Origin: Flavobacterium sp. CS20
Lineage (GTDB): Bacteria; Bacteroidota; Bacteroidia; Flavobacteriales; Flavobacteriaceae
DNA: 64,000 nucleotides
Assembly (NCBI RefSeq): GCF_018080005.1
Contig: NZ_CP073015.1
Coordinates: 1,946,001-2,010,000 of the forward strand
Direction of reading: 5' to 3'
The position numbers were made by a program, and so were the translations under genes. Positions 717-35,263 of the stretch are shown here, piece after piece. Each line of letters starts with the position of its first letter. Positions within the stretch are counted from its first letter, which is position 1. The notes beneath the pieces were generated by a model that saw only the letters and a program-made list of their open reading frames with translations, ran no database searches and was not told the origin of the DNA.

Positions 717-3700
717 TTATTCTTTGATTAGTATCAATTGATTTAAAATTTTACCACCATGTTTTAGAACTACAATGTATTGTCCTGAATTATAGACTGA
801 TAAGTCTAACAATACCTCATCTTTTAGGTTGTTGATTTTTCTTTGGTCTTTGAGGTAACCTAAAATAGTATAGATTTCTATTTCGGCGTTTTCTACTTTA
901 TCTATGTTTAATAATTCATAAAACAATGTTGTTATATGGGTTACAGGATTTGGTGAAGCTTTGAGTTTGGCATCTATTCTGGGTTGAGAATTATTATAAA
1001 TGATTTCAATTTCATGTATACAGAAAGCATCTCCTGCTTGTTGCCCCATAACTTGCACAAAATCAGAACCTCCAGTAAAGCCAGCATCTGGAATAAAAGT
1101 CAAGAGATTAGAGCTATTAAAACTAACCGATGAATTTGCCGGAATGGTTATTGGATTAGGGCTATAAACGCCATTATAGGAGGTAAGGCTTAAGGTTATT
1201 GCAAAGCTGTTATTGTTGTTAATAGACCCGATGATATCATAGGATATGAAATTGTTATTAGAATTAGCAATGGACTCTAGATTGTATTCAATATTACAGC
1301 TTGCTTCACAACCTCCATCTATATCTATGTCTAAATCTGCTGATGTCGAAACACATCCCAAATCATTTGTAAGGCTGAGATTTAAAAATCCATCAGAGGG
1401 AATTATCACATAATCTGAAACAACACCATTTTGACTGACACTGTTGTCGTTAAAATTCCATGAATAAGGATGAAATTCAGGAATAGGACCAATGATATAA
1501 GGAACTGGTTCAGACCTTATAGTTTCAGTACAAAAATCGATACAACCCTCAGGAAAAATCCATAAAAATTCATCAGGCGATTTGGGGACAAACACGTTGG
1601 CAGTGGTAGAGCGACCTGATTGGGGTTGATAGGTTACACTATAAGCGCCACCTGTATTTACGTTAATATATGTACCTTGCATACCGTTACTCCATGTATA
1701 TAAAGCGTTAGGTTGCGGGTTAGTAATCTTAAGCGTTACAGAATAGGCTTCACACTGGTTTAATTGGATATCAATTTGAGGTTCAATACTCGGTAAAACG
1801 TTAACAGCAATAGTCTCACTTGTCTGACAATTAGTGGTATTGTCTTTAGCTTCTATCAAATACTCAAAAACACCAGCAGTTTGCATGGTTTCAGTATAAG
1901 AAATGTCTGGTCCAGACGTCCAAGCTTGAACGATATTAGGTTGCCCATTTTGTACTATAGATATTTGATATTCAGCATTACTTGGTGAAACTGTTCCCGA
2001 AAACTCGAGTTCTTCACCTTCGCAAAGTAATGTATTCCCATCAATATTAAGGCTAGGATTTGGGAAATTGTTAACATACACGCCAGCCAATTCTTCATAT
2101 AAACAACCGTTGGCATCAGTTAACTTTAGGCTATAAAGTCCTTCGGTTGAAGCGTTAAAAGTCGAGTTGGTTGCACCGTTTATGTTTTGACCGCCTAAAA
2201 CCCATTGATATCCAGAAGGTGTTTCTCCTCCAAAGGGTGGTTCATAAAATAGGTTTACATTTTCACCTTGACATAATAAAGGATTATCAGGTTTTATTTC
2301 CCCTCCAAACTCCGCCTTCAGCACCTCAAGACTTTCAATGCTAAACGTCTTGCTACAACCATAGGGGTTGGTGGCAATGAGAGTTATCTGATTAGTAGGA
2401 TTTGCATCCATTTGAATGACAATATCTTGAAGTGTATTGGTGGCGCCTTGAAATTCCCATTGATAAGTGACATTAGGGTCGGGATTTGTGGGGCTTAGCA
2501 CCACTTGTTCTTCCGTGCAAAAAGGAGAACTATTAGAAATACTAAATGTAGCATCGGGCAAGCTTAAATCTACGTTTTCTACTTTTATATTGCAAGGCGG
2601 AAAACCTTGTTGTTCAATATATAAAGTAAATTCGTAATTGCCAGGTGGTAAAGTGGCTGTAGCTTGGTTAAAATCTTGATTGCTTGGGTCGATGACTATA
2701 GATTGCCCAGTATCAGTATTAGTTATGTCATAATTAGCCTCTAAATTATTAAAGCTAGGCAAAAATGTAGAGTCATTGTGTAGGATAACATCATACCCAT
2801 TACCATTACTATTACAGGTTATTTCAGTATTTAATATAGGATGATAGCCAACATCTACACTTGCAAGGCTATCTGTAAAACAATCATTATAATTAGCTTG
2901 TGCTTTAAATTTAAAACTTCCACTTGTATTAACATTAAATATATAGGTAACTTGACCAGGGCTAGACTGAGCGCTATCAAAAGTTGCATTGGCATCAGAA
3001 AAACTATCTGAAGTTTCTATAACCACAGAAACAGGATTATTAGAAAACGTTGCAGTGACTTCAACTTGATTGCAATTAATCCAATTTGCGTCAACACTAA
3101 TGGTTTCGTCTTCACATTCTAGTTTGTCTTCACAGTTCTTAAAAATTTCATAAACACTTGTTGTGGTTATACATCCATTAGTTCCAGTAACTTGAACAGT
3201 ATAGGTTCCAAAGCCGTTATTATTATTGCTTAAGTCTATGGTATTAGAGGTTTCGCCCTGTATAATAGTACCATTAAATAGCCACTGAAAAGACTGATTG
3301 CCATTGGGGTCTTGAACATTGACTTGTAACACAGCATCTATATCTTCTGCTTGGCAAAACGTATTACCTCCAGAAAATAATGATATATCAGCTTCAGGAG
3401 CAGGTTTTACTGTTATTGTACCGCTTGCAGTAGCATCATTACAAATATCACTCTGAATAGAAATATTGTAACCAATGGCTATATCGCTATCAACATTGTT
3501 TAAAACAATATCTTGAATGGTATATGAAGTTGTAGAATTTATTGTTGTGTTATTAAAATTATTAAAGTTATTTTCAAAGTTGATATTGACATCTTGAGGA
3601 CTTAAACCCGGTAATTCTATGTCGCTTGTAATGTCTACGTCAAATGGTGTTCCTGCACAAATTTCTGCAGGCATATTTACCGTAAGTGTAGGCGATTCAA

Positions 3701-5749
3701 TCAGCGAAAAATCAAACCTATCAATTTCCTGCATTTGACCGCAGACCTTAGCATTTACTATAATTTGTCCTGTGTTAATATAGTTACCACTACTATCTGT
3801 AAAAGGTTCATTAAATAATATGATAGGATTATTGGTTCCAATTCCATCAGACACTGTTGCTAATTGTGGTGGATCGAATGTCCAAACATAAGTATCAGAA
3901 TCTTGATAGTCCAGCGAAAATTCTGCCAAACTACTGGCACAATAACTTTCAGGTCCAGCAGATGGTGGGGTAGAATTATCTACGATTTGTTCGTCAACTT
4001 GAAAAAGATTAATATCTTTAGTCAAAATACTTGACAAGCAATTTTCTGCATTTGGGTCAAACAATTGGGCTGAAACTTGATAGTTTGTAAATCCCTCGTC
4101 AAAAATTACAGAGACTTCATCTCCTTGATGAGGCCCAATGATTTGACCATTGCTTACAGACCAAATAATATTTCCTTCATTGATAACATTAGATAAACTA
4201 TAACTTAACAATTGGTTAGGACATACGTAATCCTCACCTAAAATTTCAGTATTGCTAGGGAAACTTGGATTGTCAACAATTTCAATAGAAGAAGATGTTT
4301 CACAAAAGCCATCAGCATTTACTGTTATTGTATGTAATCCTGTCTGAGTAAAAGCATAATCAAAACTATTCCCTATTCCAGTGGCAACAGTATTGTTTAA
4401 GTGTTTAATTGACCATTGTGCATTAGTTGCATTAGTATTTACAAGCTGAAAATTAACTACGTTTTCTATACAACTTACAACTGGATGCTGGTCTATTTCT
4501 AAGTTTTCTAAAACTTTTATATCAATTTCAGCCGTGCCGCCACAGCTAATTAAGGTGTTGGTGTAGTTGGCTTTAAGCGTGTAGATACCTGAATCAAGTC
4601 CATCGGTATCAACGGCTATTTCGTTTCTTTGGTCAACAAGAATTGTGCTGTTGGGGTATGCTGTACCAAATTCATCGATTAGTGTCCATTGGAAATCTGT
4701 AGTTGGCTATTGGGGTAGCGAAAAAACGCTTTGTTCACCTTCGCATAATTCGGTATTCCCACCTTGAATTGTGCCTTGTTCTAATACCACAGGAATTCTA
4801 GCGACAAGCACAGCATTGCATTCTACTTCACAATGGCTTTGATCAAAATAAACAGTGCCGAAACCCGACGCATCAACTTCATTCCAAATTACACTTACCC
4901 AATTGCTATCTTGTTCAATTATATTGCCGCCATCAATACTCCAACTGAACCGACTGCAGTTAACTTCTTCCAATTGTGATTCTGGGTTAATTTCAATAAA
5001 ATAGGTTTCTATAGCTCCTTCACATGTTACTGTTGGGCACTCTATTTGATAAGCTGGTGAGGCGATATTAATGGTTTGGGTATATTGATTTGTACAATTA
5101 CATTCGTCTCTAACCGTTAGTGTAACCTCATATTCTCCAGCTTCGTTATAGCTGTAAACAGGATTTTCTTCATTTGAAAAATCGCCGTTTCCAAAATCCC
5201 AGATATGAGAGACTATATTAGACCCATCCGTAGTTGTAGAAAGACTGTTAAAATACAAGTCGGTATCTTCACAAAAAAAATCATTATCTAGACCAGCAAC
5301 TTCAAACAAAGCTTCTGGTTTTGGTTTTGTTTCAACACATAAAGTAGCTTGTATGACTTCGCCATCTGCCATGATTATTTCTACACTAACTTCAGCATCT
5401 TCACCTGCAACTGGCCATTCGACTTGTAATGAATTTTGATTGCTAAATAAGATGTCGCCACCCTGCACATCCCAATTTATTTGATCAACAAACTGTTCTT
5501 CTTCATCATAAAATAAGGTATATCTTACCACACTGCCTTCGCATACTTTTAAACATTTGCCTTCTTCTATATTTTCTAAAGGTGTCCGCTTTTCTACATC
5601 ATCATACTCCAGGCAGGCTACCTGAGAATCCCAAGTTAATACAAATCCATTTTGAGCAGATAAATTGGAAGAAAACATCAATAAAAAGCTTAGTAATAAA
5701 ATCCACTTAGCCGTGTGTGTGTGTGTGTGTGTGTGGTAGAATTTTTCAT
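717..5749 (-). pseudogene. Large T9SS-secreted PKD/Ig-like surface protein, out of frame at the signal peptide and interrupted by an in-frame amber codon
   Basis: Two open stretches (717-4706 and 4710-5681, minus) lie in the same frame and are separated by a single TAG at 4707-4709, so they are one gene of about 1,650 codons. The N-terminal half has a PKD domain (HIWDFGNGDFSNEENP, roughly residues 160-200) and then many Ig/PKD-like repeats with paired cysteines and the recurring pattern LCEGE. The end has a type A T9SS sorting domain (ASPNPV motif, then LDLSVYNSGQYIVVL and a basic end). The best start is the ATG at 5747-5749, which would encode MKNSTTHTHTHT, a hydrophobic core and a SAQ cleavage site, but an (AC)11 tract puts this ATG out of frame with the rest. 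The only in-frame starts are inside the signal peptide (5676-5681). An IS66 element lies 130 bp upstream. Likely role is adhesion or surface matrix; no enzyme domain is visible. Confidence 0.8.
5713..5734. repeat. (GT)11 / (AC)11 microsatellite in the signal-peptide coding region
   Basis: Eleven perfect GT dinucleotides on the plus strand (AC on the coding strand) encode the Thr-His run that starts the large surface protein. Counting codons from the ATG at 5749, eleven copies lead to a TAA after about 18 codons. Nine or twelve copies would join the ATG to the signal peptide and the rest of the protein in frame. This is the layout expected of a contingency locus. Confidence 0.9.
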
Positions 5750-5878: not shown

Positions 5879-7479
5879 GTAACTAATCAGTCCGCAAATT
5901 AGCAATAATATTTAGTGTAGATAAAACTGATTGCTGATTTTTTAAACAAGAATCTGTTACAGATCTAAGTATGGCAAAGTTATCACAGCCCTGTTCTGAT
6001 CTAAATTGTCCAGAGATTTTCTGTTTTACTTTTATATTTCTTATTGCTCTTTCAGAGGCGTTGTTATCTGGAGGTACATCCAGATGATAGAGGAATGTAA
6101 AGATATAGTTCCTGTATTTTATAAGTCTTTTTTTAAAAGTTATTAATTCTTTATGTTCTTTTGGCGGATCATGATTTAAGATGATATCCATTCTTTTTTC
6201 TATACTTTTCTTTATTGGACAATCCTTGTTAAAGGCTATATCTTTTATATTTTTCTTAAAGTTGATGGCTTTTAAAAATAAGTTTTTGCAAGCTCTACTC
6301 CATTTATGATCGTGCTTTTTCAGTTAGATAGTTTAAATCCCGAAGTAAATGTGCCATGCAAATTTGGTGTGATTGAGCGTTGGTATTGAAATGACTCTTC
6401 CAACAATCGTGCACTAACACAGCATTTTCAAAACCATTTTCAAAGGTTTGTTCTATACTTTTTTGTCCTCTATTATCAGTTATGGTAATAAAGGTTGCTT
6501 TTTCATTTTGCCATGTCCACGCCCAGTTTTTGTCTCCTGATACTTTTACTCTGTTTCATCGCTACCGATAGGTGATTTTGAGTTTGCTATTTCTTGTTTT
6601 ATCAGATTATATGCAGGTTCAGCTTTAGTGACAAGTTTGTTTAATAAATAGTGTATTCCTCCTTCACTTATAGGAATATTAAAAACCGTATTGAACATTT
6701 CTTGCATTCTCTTAAAAGGCAAGTATTGTCTGGTATGAAAATATCCTATTAAACTTTCAATATTATTCCCATAGCTTACGGGTGCATTTGCTTGTGATGG
6801 ATAGTCGCTTTTTGTTTCACAACCGCAAGGACAAACTTTTTATAAACCTTGTGGTTCTGTGACTTTTATTTTTATTTCAGGGATGTCAAATACCTGTCGA
6901 CTTCCTGCATATTGATGTGGAAGTGATGAAAGGTCGTTTCCACAACAGTTACAATAATCTGGTATGTGTTCTTCTGTAACATCAGGTATCTCAACCATCT
7001 TCAAAGTATTGCCTTTTCTTCTGTTTGCCCACCTGGCTTACGCCCTGTCTTTATTCTTAGGCTTTTCCTCTTTGGTCTATTTTCATCCTTTGAGGGTGGT
7101 ATGGAGCTATTATTACTGTTTTTTGGAGTTTCATATTTGGTAAGTCGTGCTTTAAGTTGACTATTTTCTAATTCTAAAGCAATTAGCTTTTTAGAAAGTT
7201 CTTCTACCTTCTGCAAGAGTGATTCTATAAGCTTATCCTTTTCCAACTTTTTTTCTTACAAATGTAGGGTGGTATGTTTGTAACAAACAAATTATTAACC
7301 AATTAGTTATCAATCCAAAAAGTTAAAAATGTTGATAAAGGTCTGATTTTTAAAATCAAGCTCTAATGAGTGGCTTATTTGAAATTTTTTTTAAAAAATT
7401 GAAATAAGCACAAAGAAAATATATGCTCAGTTTGTATTATCCAAAATTTATAGTCTTATTTTTGACACTGATTAGTTAC
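5879..7479. mobile_element. Decayed IS66-family insertion sequence with 13-bp terminal inverted repeats
   Basis: The left end (5879-5891) reads GTAACTAATCAGT and the right end (7467-7479) is its exact reverse complement. Directly outside both ends is the same octamer AATTATAC (5871-5878 and 7480-7487), the 8-bp target duplication typical of IS66. The only gene inside is a broken transposase. The perfect duplication shows that this was a real single insertion, and the transposase has decayed since then or was mobilised in trans. It sits between aspS and the large surface protein, in the place where the surface gene's promoter would be expected. Confidence 0.92.
5883..7246 (-). pseudogene. IS66-family transposase (TnpC-like), multiply frameshifted
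   Basis: Read on the minus strand, the pieces follow the order of an IS66 DDE transposase. An N-terminal coiled-coil/leucine zipper and GRKPGGQ region lies at 7001-7246. A zinc-finger-like CNCCG and an HTH/central region lie at about 6560-6990. The central DDE core (VLVHDCWKSHF, HQICMAHLLRDLNYL) lies at about 6320-6550. The C-terminal domain with PPDNNASERAIRN lies at 5883-6191. Joining these needs frameshifts near 7015, 6553 and 6320 and passing a TAA near 6841. The intact protein would have about 450-500 residues. The stop codon lies inside the left inverted repeat. The gene cannot make an active enzyme as written. Confidence 0.9.
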
Positions 7480-7618: not shown

Positions 7619-9376
7619 ATGTATAGAACGCATAACAACGGCGAATTAAATATCAATCACCTTAACCAAAAGGTCAAACTTTCGGGTTGGGTTCAGAAAA
7701 TTAGAGACAAAGGTTTTATCGTTTGGGTAGATTTGAGAGACCGCTACGGCATCACGCAATTGGTTTTTGATACTGAAAGAACGCCAAAATCTATTCTTGA
7801 TAAAGCCACTGAATTGTCGCGTGAATGTGTGATTCAAATTGAAGGTCAAGTTATTGAACGCGAATCGAAAAATAAAGACATTTCAACCGGTGAAATCGAG
7901 ATTTTAGTTCAAGATTTAGTGGTTTTAAATACGTCTAAATTACCACCATTTACCATAGAAGACAAAACCGATGGCGGTGAAGAGTTGCGTATGAAATATC
8001 GCTATCTCGACATCAGACGAAATCCCGTCAAACAAAAATTGATTTTTAGAAGTCAAGTCAGTATGGCGGTAAGAAATTATTTAGCACAACAAGACTTTAT
8101 AGAAGTGGAAACTCCGTATTTAATTAAATCTACTCCTGAAGGCGCGAGAGATTTTGTGGTGCCAAGTCGAATGAACCAAGGACAGTTTTACGCCCTTCCG
8201 CAATCGCCCCAAACTTTTAAACAATTGCTGATGGTTGGTGGTTTAGAAAAGTATTTTCAAATCGTAAAGTGCTTTCGCGATGAAGATTTAAGAGCAGATA
8301 GACAGCCTGAATTTACACAAATAGACTGCGAAATGTCTTTTGTTACACAAGAAGATATTCTCAATACATTTGAAGGTTTGACCAAACATCTCATCAAAAC
8401 TACACATGGCATTACAGTTGAAAACTTCCCACGGCTAACTTATGATGAAGCTATGTCAACCTATGGTAATGACAAGCCAGACATCAGATTTGGAATGAAA
8501 TTTGGTGAACTCAACGCGATAGCTCAACACAAAGATTTTAAAATTTTTAACGAAGCAGAATTGGTTGTTGGCATAGCTATTCCCGGTGGGGCAAGCTATT
8601 CCAGAAAAGAGATTGACAAACTCATCGATTGGGTCAAACGCCCTCAAGTTGGGGCAAAGGGAATGGTTTATGTCAAATGTAATGAAGACGGTAGTTTTAA
8701 ATCATCAGTTGATAAATTTTATGATAATGACGATTTTAAACAATGGGCTGAAAAAACCAATGCTCAACCTGGAGATTTGATAGCGGTTTTATCTGGAGAT
8801 ATCAACCCAACACGCACTCAACTCAGTGCTTTACGCATGGAAATGGGTAATCGATTAGGCCTGAGAAAACCTGATGAATTTGCTCCGCTTTGGGTTGTTG
8901 ATTTTCCGCTATTAGAATGGGATGAAGATACTCAAGCTTATCACGCGATGCACCATCCCTTTACTTCGCCTAAAGCAGAAGATGTAGAATTACTGGAAAC
9001 ATCTCCAGGCGAAGTTCGTGCCAATGCTTATGATTTGGTCTTAAATGGTAATGAAATTGGTGGTGGCTCTATAAGAATTCACGATAAAAACTTGCAAAGC
9101 AAAATGTTTAACGTGCTTGGTTTTACCAAAGAAGAAGCTCAAAAACAATTTGGGTTTTTAATGGATGCTTTTGAATACGGTGCACCTCCACACGGTGGCA
9201 TTGCTTTTGGCCTTGACCGTTTAGTCGCTATTCTTGGCGGACAGGAAAGTATTAGAGATTTTATTGCTTTCCCAAAAAACAATATGGGCTGAGATGTGAT
9301 GATTGATGCCCCAGCAACCTTGGATCAAGAACAATTGAAAGAATTAGGCATAGAATTGAATAAGAGTAAAAAATAA
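7619..9376 (+). CDS. aspS: Aspartyl-tRNA synthetase with an in-frame UGA near the C-terminus
   Basis: This enzyme charges tRNA-Asp with aspartate. An N-terminal OB-fold anticodon-binding domain (residues 1-110) is followed by the class II catalytic core with motif 2 ([17 protein letters not shown], about residue 219), the bacterial insertion domain, and motif 3 ([14 protein letters not shown], about residue 527). The reading frame meets TGA at 9290-9292 after FPKNNMG. The same frame then continues with [20 protein letters not shown] and ends at a TAA at 9374-9376, which is the normal C-terminus of this family. The TGA sits where an arginine codon (CGA) is expected, so a single C-to-T change or a base-call error explains it. 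Translation to the TGA gives 557 residues; the full length would be 585. Catalytic motifs are upstream of the stop, so the short form might still function. Confidence 0.9.
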
Positions 9377-10160: not shown

Positions 10161-10233
10161 GATCTGGTAGCTCAGTTGGTAGAGCATCTCCCTTTTAAGG
10201 AGAGGGTCATGGGTTCGAGCCCCATCCAGATCA
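10161..10233 (+). tRNA. tRNA-Lys (TTT), copy 1
   Basis: A full cloverleaf is visible: acceptor GATCTGG pairs with CCAGATC, D loop GCTCAGTTGGTAGAG, anticodon stem TCTCC/GGAGA around loop CTTTTAA (anticodon TTT), and T loop GGGTTCGAGCCCC. The discriminator base is A and CCA is not encoded. Its 3' end is the start of a 65-bp tandem array. Confidence 0.97.
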
Positions 10234-10470
10234 CATAGTGAGCTGGATGTGGTGAGAAGTTTATGCTGAGCTTGTCGAAGTAAGCCCCATCCAGATCACA
10301 TAGTGAGCTGGATGGTGTGAGAAGTTTATGCTGAGCTTGTCGAAGTAAGCCCCATCCAGATCACATAGTGAGCTGGATGGTGTGAGAAGTTTATGCTGAG
10401 CTTGTCGAAGTAAGCCCCATCCAGATCACATAGTGAGCTGGATTTAGTGAGAAGTTTATGCTGAGCAGTG
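10218..10470 (+). repeat. Tandem 65-bp array, four units, built on the 3' end of tRNA-Lys copy 1
   Basis: AGCCCCATCCAGATCA, the 3' end of the tRNA, recurs at 10218, 10283, 10348 and 10413, exactly 65 bp apart. Each copy is followed by CATAGTGAGCTGGAT and by GCTGAGCTTGTCGAAG, a separate repeat element. The last unit diverges after GCTGAGC. The extra copies lack the rest of the tRNA and cannot be functional tRNAs. The stretch from 10471 to the second tRNA-Lys is AT-rich with nothing else recognisable. Confidence 0.93.
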
Positions 10471-10599
10471 CTGAAATATTTAAGTTGGATTTATCAAATG
10501 TTAAGATTGTTTTGAAAGGAGTTAAAGAGTTTTAAATTCAACTAATACTAATTAATTAGTTAACGTTCTCTGTTGTTATTATAAAATTTTATTTATTCA

Positions 10600-10672
10600 G
10601 ATCTGGTAGCTCAGTTGGTAGAGCATCTCCCTTTTAAGGAGAGGGTCATGGGTTCGAGCCCCATCCAGATCA
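10600..10672 (+). tRNA. tRNA-Lys (TTT), copy 2
   Basis: The sequence is identical to the tRNA-Lys at 10161-10233, with the same TTT anticodon and no encoded CCA. It has its own 65-bp array downstream, so the tRNA and array appear to have been duplicated together or converted to match. Confidence 0.97.
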
Positions 10673-10906
10673 CATAGTGAGCTGGATGGTGTGAGAAGTT
10701 TATGCTGAGCTTGTCGAAGTAAGCCCCATCCAGATCACATAGTGAGCTGGATGGTGTGAGAAGTTTATGCTGAGCTTGTCGAAGTAAGCCCCATCCAGAT
10801 CACATAGTGAGCTGAATGGGGTGAGAAGTTTATGCTGAGCTTGTCGAAGTAAGCCCCATCCAGATCACATAGTGAGCTGGATGGTGTGAGAAGTTTATGC
10901 TGAGCT
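10657..10906 (+). repeat. Tandem 65-bp array, four units, built on the 3' end of tRNA-Lys copy 2
   Basis: The tRNA 3' end recurs at 10657, 10722, 10787 and 10852, again every 65 bp and with the same intervening sequence as the first array apart from a few point differences (for example GCTGAATGGG in the third unit). The last unit breaks off at GCTGAGCTT. Confidence 0.93.
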
Positions 10907-11046
10907 TTATCTCTGCTCAAGACAGGCTTGTGGAAACTTCACCAAGCATAAAGTATGTTATGAAGTGGAGACAAATTAGACTGAACAGTTATGTGCTAAA
11001 CTCAATCCAATTTCATTAAGATTTCCAGTTATGTTTTAAATGTATT

Positions 11047-34807: not shown

Positions 34808-35263
34808 TGTCCTGACAACGCTCTGCCGTTCGTCTGTTGGGCATGTCCTGACAACGCTCTGCCGTTCGTCTGTTGGGCTTGTCCTGACAACGCTCTGCCG
34901 TTCATCTGTTGGGCATGTCCTGACAACGCTCTGCCGTTCGTCTTTTGGGCTTGTCCTGACAACGCTCTGCCGTTCGTCTGTTGGGCATGTCCTGACAACG
35001 CTCTGCGTTCGTCTTTTGGGCATGTCCTGACAACGCTCTGCCGTTCGTCTTTTGGGCTTGTCCTGACAACGCTCTGCGTTCGTCTGTTGGGCATGTCCTG
35101 ACAACGCTCTGCCGTTCGTCTGTTGGGCATGTCCTGACAACGCTCTGCCGTTCGTCTGTTAGGCATGTCCTGACAACGCTCTGCCGTTCGTCTTTTGGTC
35201 TTGTCCTGACAACGCTCTGCCGTTCGTCTGTTGGGCTTGTCCTGACAACGCTCTGCGTTCGTC
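34808..35263. repeat. Thirteen-copy 36-bp minisatellite
   Basis: TGTCCTGACAACGCTCTG starts at about 34808, 34844, 34880, 34916, 34952, 34988, 35023, 35059, 35094, 35130, 35166, 35202 and 35238. Units are 36 bp, or 35 bp where one C of GCCG is missing. Variation is confined to a few positions (TTGGGCA/TTGGGCT, CTGTT/CTTTT). The array has no spacers, so it is not a CRISPR. Long minus-strand frames across it (12-residue AERCQD periods) are by-products of the 36-bp period. Confidence 0.95.

Follow-up and report, generated by a model that had tools for sequence, protein, structure and literature searches.

The window, a stretch of 64,000 nucleotides from the genome of Flavobacterium sp. CS20 (a 3.06-Mb assembly in a single contig, estimated 96% complete), carries on its minus strand a gene for a giant T9SS protein, whose ATG start codon lies at 5747–5749. 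On the minus strand, (AC)11 runs from 5734 to 5713 (GT on the plus strand), 12 bases 3' of the ATG at 5749–5747, and begins at codon 6 in the n-region of the predicted signal peptide. The order there is ATG AAA AAT TCT ACC, (AC)11 and GGCTAAGTGG; the stretch directly before the tract, ATGAAAAATTCTACC, contains the ATG. TRF called 5713–5735 as 11.5 copies of GT with 100% matches, which confirmed the (AC)11 close to the ATG described in the initial annotation.

Our frame reading also confirmed that eleven copies put the ATG out of frame. With n=11, reading from the ATG yields 19 codons (MKNSTTHTHTHTRLSGFYY) before a TAA at 5690–5692 on the minus strand; the early stop claimed before exists, but after 19 codons and not 18. 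When the lengths from n=7 to n=14 were computed, n=7, 10 and 13 joined the ATG to the long coding frame, and n=8, 9, 11, 12 and 14 led to a stop after 12–21 codons (12 at n=9, 14 at n=12). The in-frame counts of nine or twelve given previously were wrong by one unit, and the in-frame peptide quoted with them exists but belongs to n=10. Two marks of a contingency locus are present: a tandem repeat in the 5' coding region whose unit length is not a multiple of three, and a length dependence by which the main frame yields either the full product or an early stop.

Read in frame, the long frame consists of 346–348 codons and 1329 codons, split by a TAG at 4707–4709 (minus strand), which breaks the open frame of 1,650 codons initially reported. 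The first open segment after the tract (4710–5711, minus strand, 334 aa) contains one PKD domain (PF18911, PF00801), and the second (720–4706, minus strand, 1329 aa) contains PKD-like domains and stops with TAA at 717–719. A T9SS type A sorting domain was detected at the C-terminus (726–956, minus strand) by TIGR04183 with 25.5 bits against a cut-off of 23, which bore out the earlier description as a T9SS protein; the Pfam model PF18962 stayed under its cut-off (23.8 versus 27, E 5.4e-5). Among the relatives, TIGR04183 scored 25.8 bits in P0002, 25.1 in P0005 and 19.3 in P0003, the last under the cut-off. The h- and c-region of the signal peptide (AKWILLLSFLLMFSSNLSAQ, 5652–5711, minus strand) lies in the long frame, with a peak Kyte-Doolittle value of 2.67 over 11 residues. 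Judged by hydropathy and by eye, a Sec signal peptide is present only in the in-frame reading. The sorting domain and this signal peptide mark the protein as a predicted T9SS substrate.

Searched as an exact pattern on both strands, the 3.06-Mb assembly contained no AC run of at least 8 units other than this tract. Markov models of order 1 and order 2, trained on the window, gave an expected (AC)11 count of 8e-8 and 3e-8, respectively, for 3.06 Mb on both strands, and a chance origin of the tract was therefore ruled out.

Upstream of the gene lies an IS66-like element (5879–7479) with matching ends GTAACTAATCAGT at 5879–5891 and 7467–7479 and a PF03050 fragment; its transposase frames look broken by eye. 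Behind each of two tRNA-Lys(ttt) genes (10161–10234 and 10600–10673, within 10161–10907), a 65-bp unit that starts with the tRNA 3' end is repeated in tandem about four times. A 36-bp tandem array of 12.8 copies with 94% matches occupies 34808–35263.

Orthologues and the start of the gene

A protein search with the 1164 residues of the second segment as query returned 30 proteins, one of which was the window's own. Seven of them (P0002–P0008) were 51–83% identical across the whole query. P0003 (77% identical) begins MNNSTTHTHTHTAKWILLLSFLLMFSSNLSAQ, the in-frame version of the window start, with a start similar to the window's at MNNSTTHTHTHTAKW. The 20 residues from AKW to SAQ in the window's long frame were all identical to P0003, and the next 300 residues aligned gap-free with 245/300 identities; at that rate, 20/20 identity has a probability of 0.017. 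This comparison indicated that the out-of-frame DNA of the window encodes the signal peptide. Together with the start of P0003, it makes the ATG and the signal peptide of the window look native, thrown out of frame by the repeat count.

The states among the relatives were read from protein sequences: the window is off, and P0003 is on at the protein level. Its tract may be something other than a pure AC run, as its in-frame state was read from the protein alone. P0002 (83% identical) is annotated from MFCSNLSAQ, within the hydrophobic core. A gene finder would be expected to make such a call if the start were out of frame, which suggests from the protein sequence that the start of P0002 is perhaps out of frame too and its gene call truncated. 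Comparing the repeat across orthologues gave a divided answer, with the repeat-like in-frame start in P0003 but no repeat in P0004 or in G020 and G014, the only further genus members that have an orthologue, all with ordinary signal peptides. The switch proposed below would thus be confined to one branch.

N-termini starting in or after the signal peptide were counted in 5/7 of the closest orthologues versus 2/16 of distant relatives (Fisher p 0.011), a comparison by eye with the distant ones hand-picked from 59 N-termini, to which we give little weight; P0005 and P0008 start with Leu, and contig ends may account for their short N-termini. The orthologue is patchy within the genus, being found at E <=1e-30 in 3/27 genomes, the window's own counted. 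A search of GTDB-based contigs, which may omit records of very near genomes, gave eight loci whose best segments were 24–43% identical to P0003. Among viral contigs, no relatives of the giant protein were found.

The proposed switch and its alternatives

We read the tract, with a probability of about 0.58, as a translational contingency locus of the H. pylori oipA kind on a PKD-containing T9SS protein. Slipped-strand mispairing during replication would gain or lose AC units just 3' of the start codon. At a count of 1 modulo 3 (10, 13), the product would begin with a His-Thr repeat as n-region, and a hydrophobic core would then lead to a cleavage site with SAQ at its end. This would be a PKD protein of ~1,675 residues, with the TAG counted as sense, and it would probably be exported by Sec and then by the T9SS across the outer membrane. 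At other counts, including the eleven of this assembly, translation would stop after 12–21 codons and no surface protein would be made. The loss of the protein would presumably matter to the cell, and our guess is that an exposed phage target or an adhesin is varied in this way. The position of the tract speaks for the switch, as a change of its length there would settle whether or not the product is formed.

The likeness to oipA lies in a dinucleotide tract within the signal-peptide coding region, whose unit number sets the frame and turns the gene on or off, as described in the excerpted text of PMC10564699. The unit is AC here and CT in oipA. A T9SS-type PKD protein from a member of Bacteroidota is encoded here, in contrast to an OipA-type outer-membrane protein there, and the switching of the present gene is a prediction from its sequence.

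Only one assembly supplied the repeat count, and it contains suspect stops both in this gene and in aspS. The count is open to the same doubt, and the eleven out-of-frame units might reflect an assembly error. It is conceivable, though rather unlikely, that the true tract is in frame (e.g. 10 units) with the gene on, and that the count, the TAG at 4707–4709 and the TGA of aspS are consensus errors. In 7/7 aligned orthologues, Trp occupies the place of the TAG (SLPQWPTTDF, column W347). Likewise, aspS (7619–9292) ends in TGA at 9290–9292, where 24/25 loci of relatives have Arg; the 25th (L134) matched only spuriously, and aspS had no match in one additional genome. Among 13 same-frame stops listed, these two (at 4709 and 9290) interrupt a gene and the others are ordinary gene ends, as judged by eye. 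Both suspect stops fall at would-be GGCC sites (in aspS assuming an Arg codon). M.HaeIII acts on GGCC. The genome contains seven long C5-methyltransferase frames, one of which is very close to M.HaeIII in sequence (1dct, E 1.1e-133). Methylation-linked miscalls in nanopore assemblies have been described (PMC12506013, PMC10687267), and in Neisseria almost all were at 5mC according to the available part of PMC12506013. The IS66-like remnant upstream also seems frameshifted by eye. GGCC was found 20 times in the window versus 102.6 expected (0.19), and the ratio was 0.33–0.86 in 12 stretches of relatives. Genome-wide, TGGCCA occurred 160 times here versus 313–851 times in 25/26 genus members; the 26th, a partial genome of 1.3 Mb, had 77, per base about as low as the window's genome. 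However, low GGCC may be restriction avoidance, as CCGG, GCGC, CTAG, GATC and GTAC are low as well, and the control ACCGGT was also low genome-wide (90, with lower counts in only 3/26 relatives). The scarcity of GGCC and TGGCCA suits miscalls and restriction avoidance alike. Moreover, a tract of 10 units could still switch, and this explanation takes away the off state while leaving the potential switch in place.

If the TAG at 4707–4709 were real, the gene would be dead in this strain, whatever the tract does. An explanation by decay takes both the TAG and the out-of-frame repeat as real pseudogene marks beside an IS66 remnant, with no switching. Two lesions within one gene would fit this, as would the IS66-like element (PF03050 fragment) ending ~130 bp upstream of the ATG. 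However, 334 codons before and 1329 codons after the TAG remain open in one frame, and past the TAG the identity to the two closest orthologues is 83% and 77%, where more damage would be expected in a 5-kb gene that had long been dead. Since aspS has the same kind of stop, the sequence appears to be at fault rather than the gene, and the TAG is more likely a base-call error than a real lesion. We consider decay unlikely. It is more improbable still that the His-Thr repeat is a mere n-region with drifting AC codons, translated from a downstream start or constant in length in practice. An in-frame TTG (5681) and ATG (5678) do exist, and P0002 is annotated from a Met corresponding to a downstream start. 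Nevertheless, starting at TTG 5681 or ATG 5678 would remove most of the hydrophobic core and the whole n-region, and the export of such a product would not be expected; complete signal peptides are kept in P0003, P0004 and, by eye, 14/16 of the hand-picked distant relatives.

AC tracts and lipoprotein leaders in the genus

Returning to the contingency-locus reading, we searched for AC tracts in 27 genomes of the genus, including the window's genome; we take the genus to be Psychroflexus. AC runs of at least 8 units were found in 8/27 of them versus 6/122 other genomes of the family and order (Fisher p 6e-4), and the excess was retained when the window's genome was left out (7/26, Fisher p 2e-3). 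Besides the window, there were 11 such tracts across seven genus genomes. Nine of the 11 lie 103–147 bp upstream of an ATG opening a same-strand frame of at least 80 residues with a signal-like N-terminus, and eight of these nine genes are lipoprotein-like, the N-termini and the lipoprotein look being judged by eye. The tracts are 8–14 units long, several in a shared leader (L072, L073, L074, L075, L076, L077, L078, L079). The remaining ones were a second tract of G021, in a like leader before a frame stopping after few codons, and a G023 tract inside a membrane-protein-like frame. As background, 2,660/160,016 strand positions (~1.7%) of the stretches retrieved around these tracts lie 90–160 bp upstream of a frame of at least 100 residues with a hydrophobic N-terminus; against this rate, 9/11 has a binomial probability of 5e-15, the related loci not being independent. 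For six tracts of other genera (one per genome, the second G052 tract left out), no same-strand frame of at least 100 residues started within 379 bp downstream, although the L046 locus ends too soon to tell. The genus tracts other than the window's are promoter-side and thus support the use of AC tracts generally, not the start-codon mechanism. The anatomy of the tract, the in-frame start of P0003 and the AC-tract excess in the genus all favour the slipped-strand switching originally proposed, but it is unproven, and the repeat count derives from a single assembly.

A lipoprotein family with 14 matches in 9/27 genus genomes, the G004 member having an M23 peptidase domain, provided a second set of candidates. 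Upstream (AC)/(CA) runs of 5 to 14 units were found in seven members (G001 twice, G004 twice, G011, G015, G021). By TRF, each of the two G026 members is preceded by 8.4 perfect copies of the octamer GAGCTACA, the G023 member by 8.0 copies of the heptamer CTTGAAA, which reads CAAGTTT on the gene strand, and the member in the window's genome by a worn array with 2.9 octamer copies. These octamer or heptamer arrays, including the worn octamer, are at L144:1265-1331, L151:1265-1331, L147:2072-2127 and L145:1295-1317. One G008 member had neither an AC run nor an octamer or heptamer array in its upstream stretch; this reading of repeats covers the leaders with a proper start, leaving out L150 and L152. 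Long AC tracts in like leaders also precede lipoprotein genes outside the 14 matches, for example at G001:C1 and G015:C1. Across the 27 genomes, a tandem of three exact octamer copies occurred nowhere but in the two leaders of G026, and a tandem of three exact heptamer copies only in the leader of the G023 member and at a further site in G026; the reversed pattern, used as heptamer control, gave 5 matches in G026. Most leaders contain a block CTTAG, often TTTACTTAG or TTTCCTTAG, 3' of the repeat, and several contain palindrome-like elements, e.g. TACGGTCGAACCGTA, 5' of it. Between species, the repeat differs in length. Separately, exact copies of ACGGTCGAACCGT number 4–9 per genome in four members of the genus and 0 in the other 23 (L081–L104); some copies lie upstream of these lipoprotein genes, and it is a possible regulator site.

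In Neisseria meningitidis nadA, a promoter repeat changes operator spacing, as stated in the excerpt of PMC2791445. The lipoprotein leaders resemble this layout, as palindromes stand upstream of the repeat and a conserved block lies between it and the gene, and they may represent promoter-type phase variation in which repeat units have been exchanged. Unlike nadA, the window locus is coding and not promoter-type, and the leaders are known from their nucleotide sequences. Tentatively, we suggest that Psychroflexus may possess a two-tier surface switching, in which a coding AC tract would act on the giant T9SS protein and promoter-type tracts on the lipoproteins, with the units AC, GAGCTACA and CAAGTTT swapped between species and their place kept.

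Possible repeat-driven switching in Flavobacteriaceae

In Bacteroides, surface genes are switched by DNA-inversion promoters, a different mechanism from the repeat slippage proposed for the window tract. For Flavobacterium psychrophilum, rough/smooth colony phase variation is mentioned in the available part of PMC4322650, with no mechanism named there. No report of repeat-driven switching in Flavobacteriaceae was present among the literature matches listed, as given by titles and the starts of abstracts, and none of the papers retrieved that combine T9SS or Psychroflexus with phase variation was on repeat switching by the same measure. As far as these searches reach, Flavobacteriaceae are not known to have simple-sequence contingency loci of the kinds proposed here.

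In Haemophilus, Neisseria, Campylobacter, Helicobacter and Moraxella, phase-variable simple-sequence repeat loci likewise have short hypermutable repeats in or before surface genes, according to partial texts. Those loci belong to host-adapted bacteria of other phyla, whereas here a member of Flavobacteriaceae has a single long AC tract in its genome. Work on repeat-driven switching has mostly concerned pathogens adapted to a host, in which it is accounted for by immune escape. If it were clearly established for a T9SS surface protein in an environmental flavobacterium, other pressures would be suggested, for example phages or grazers.
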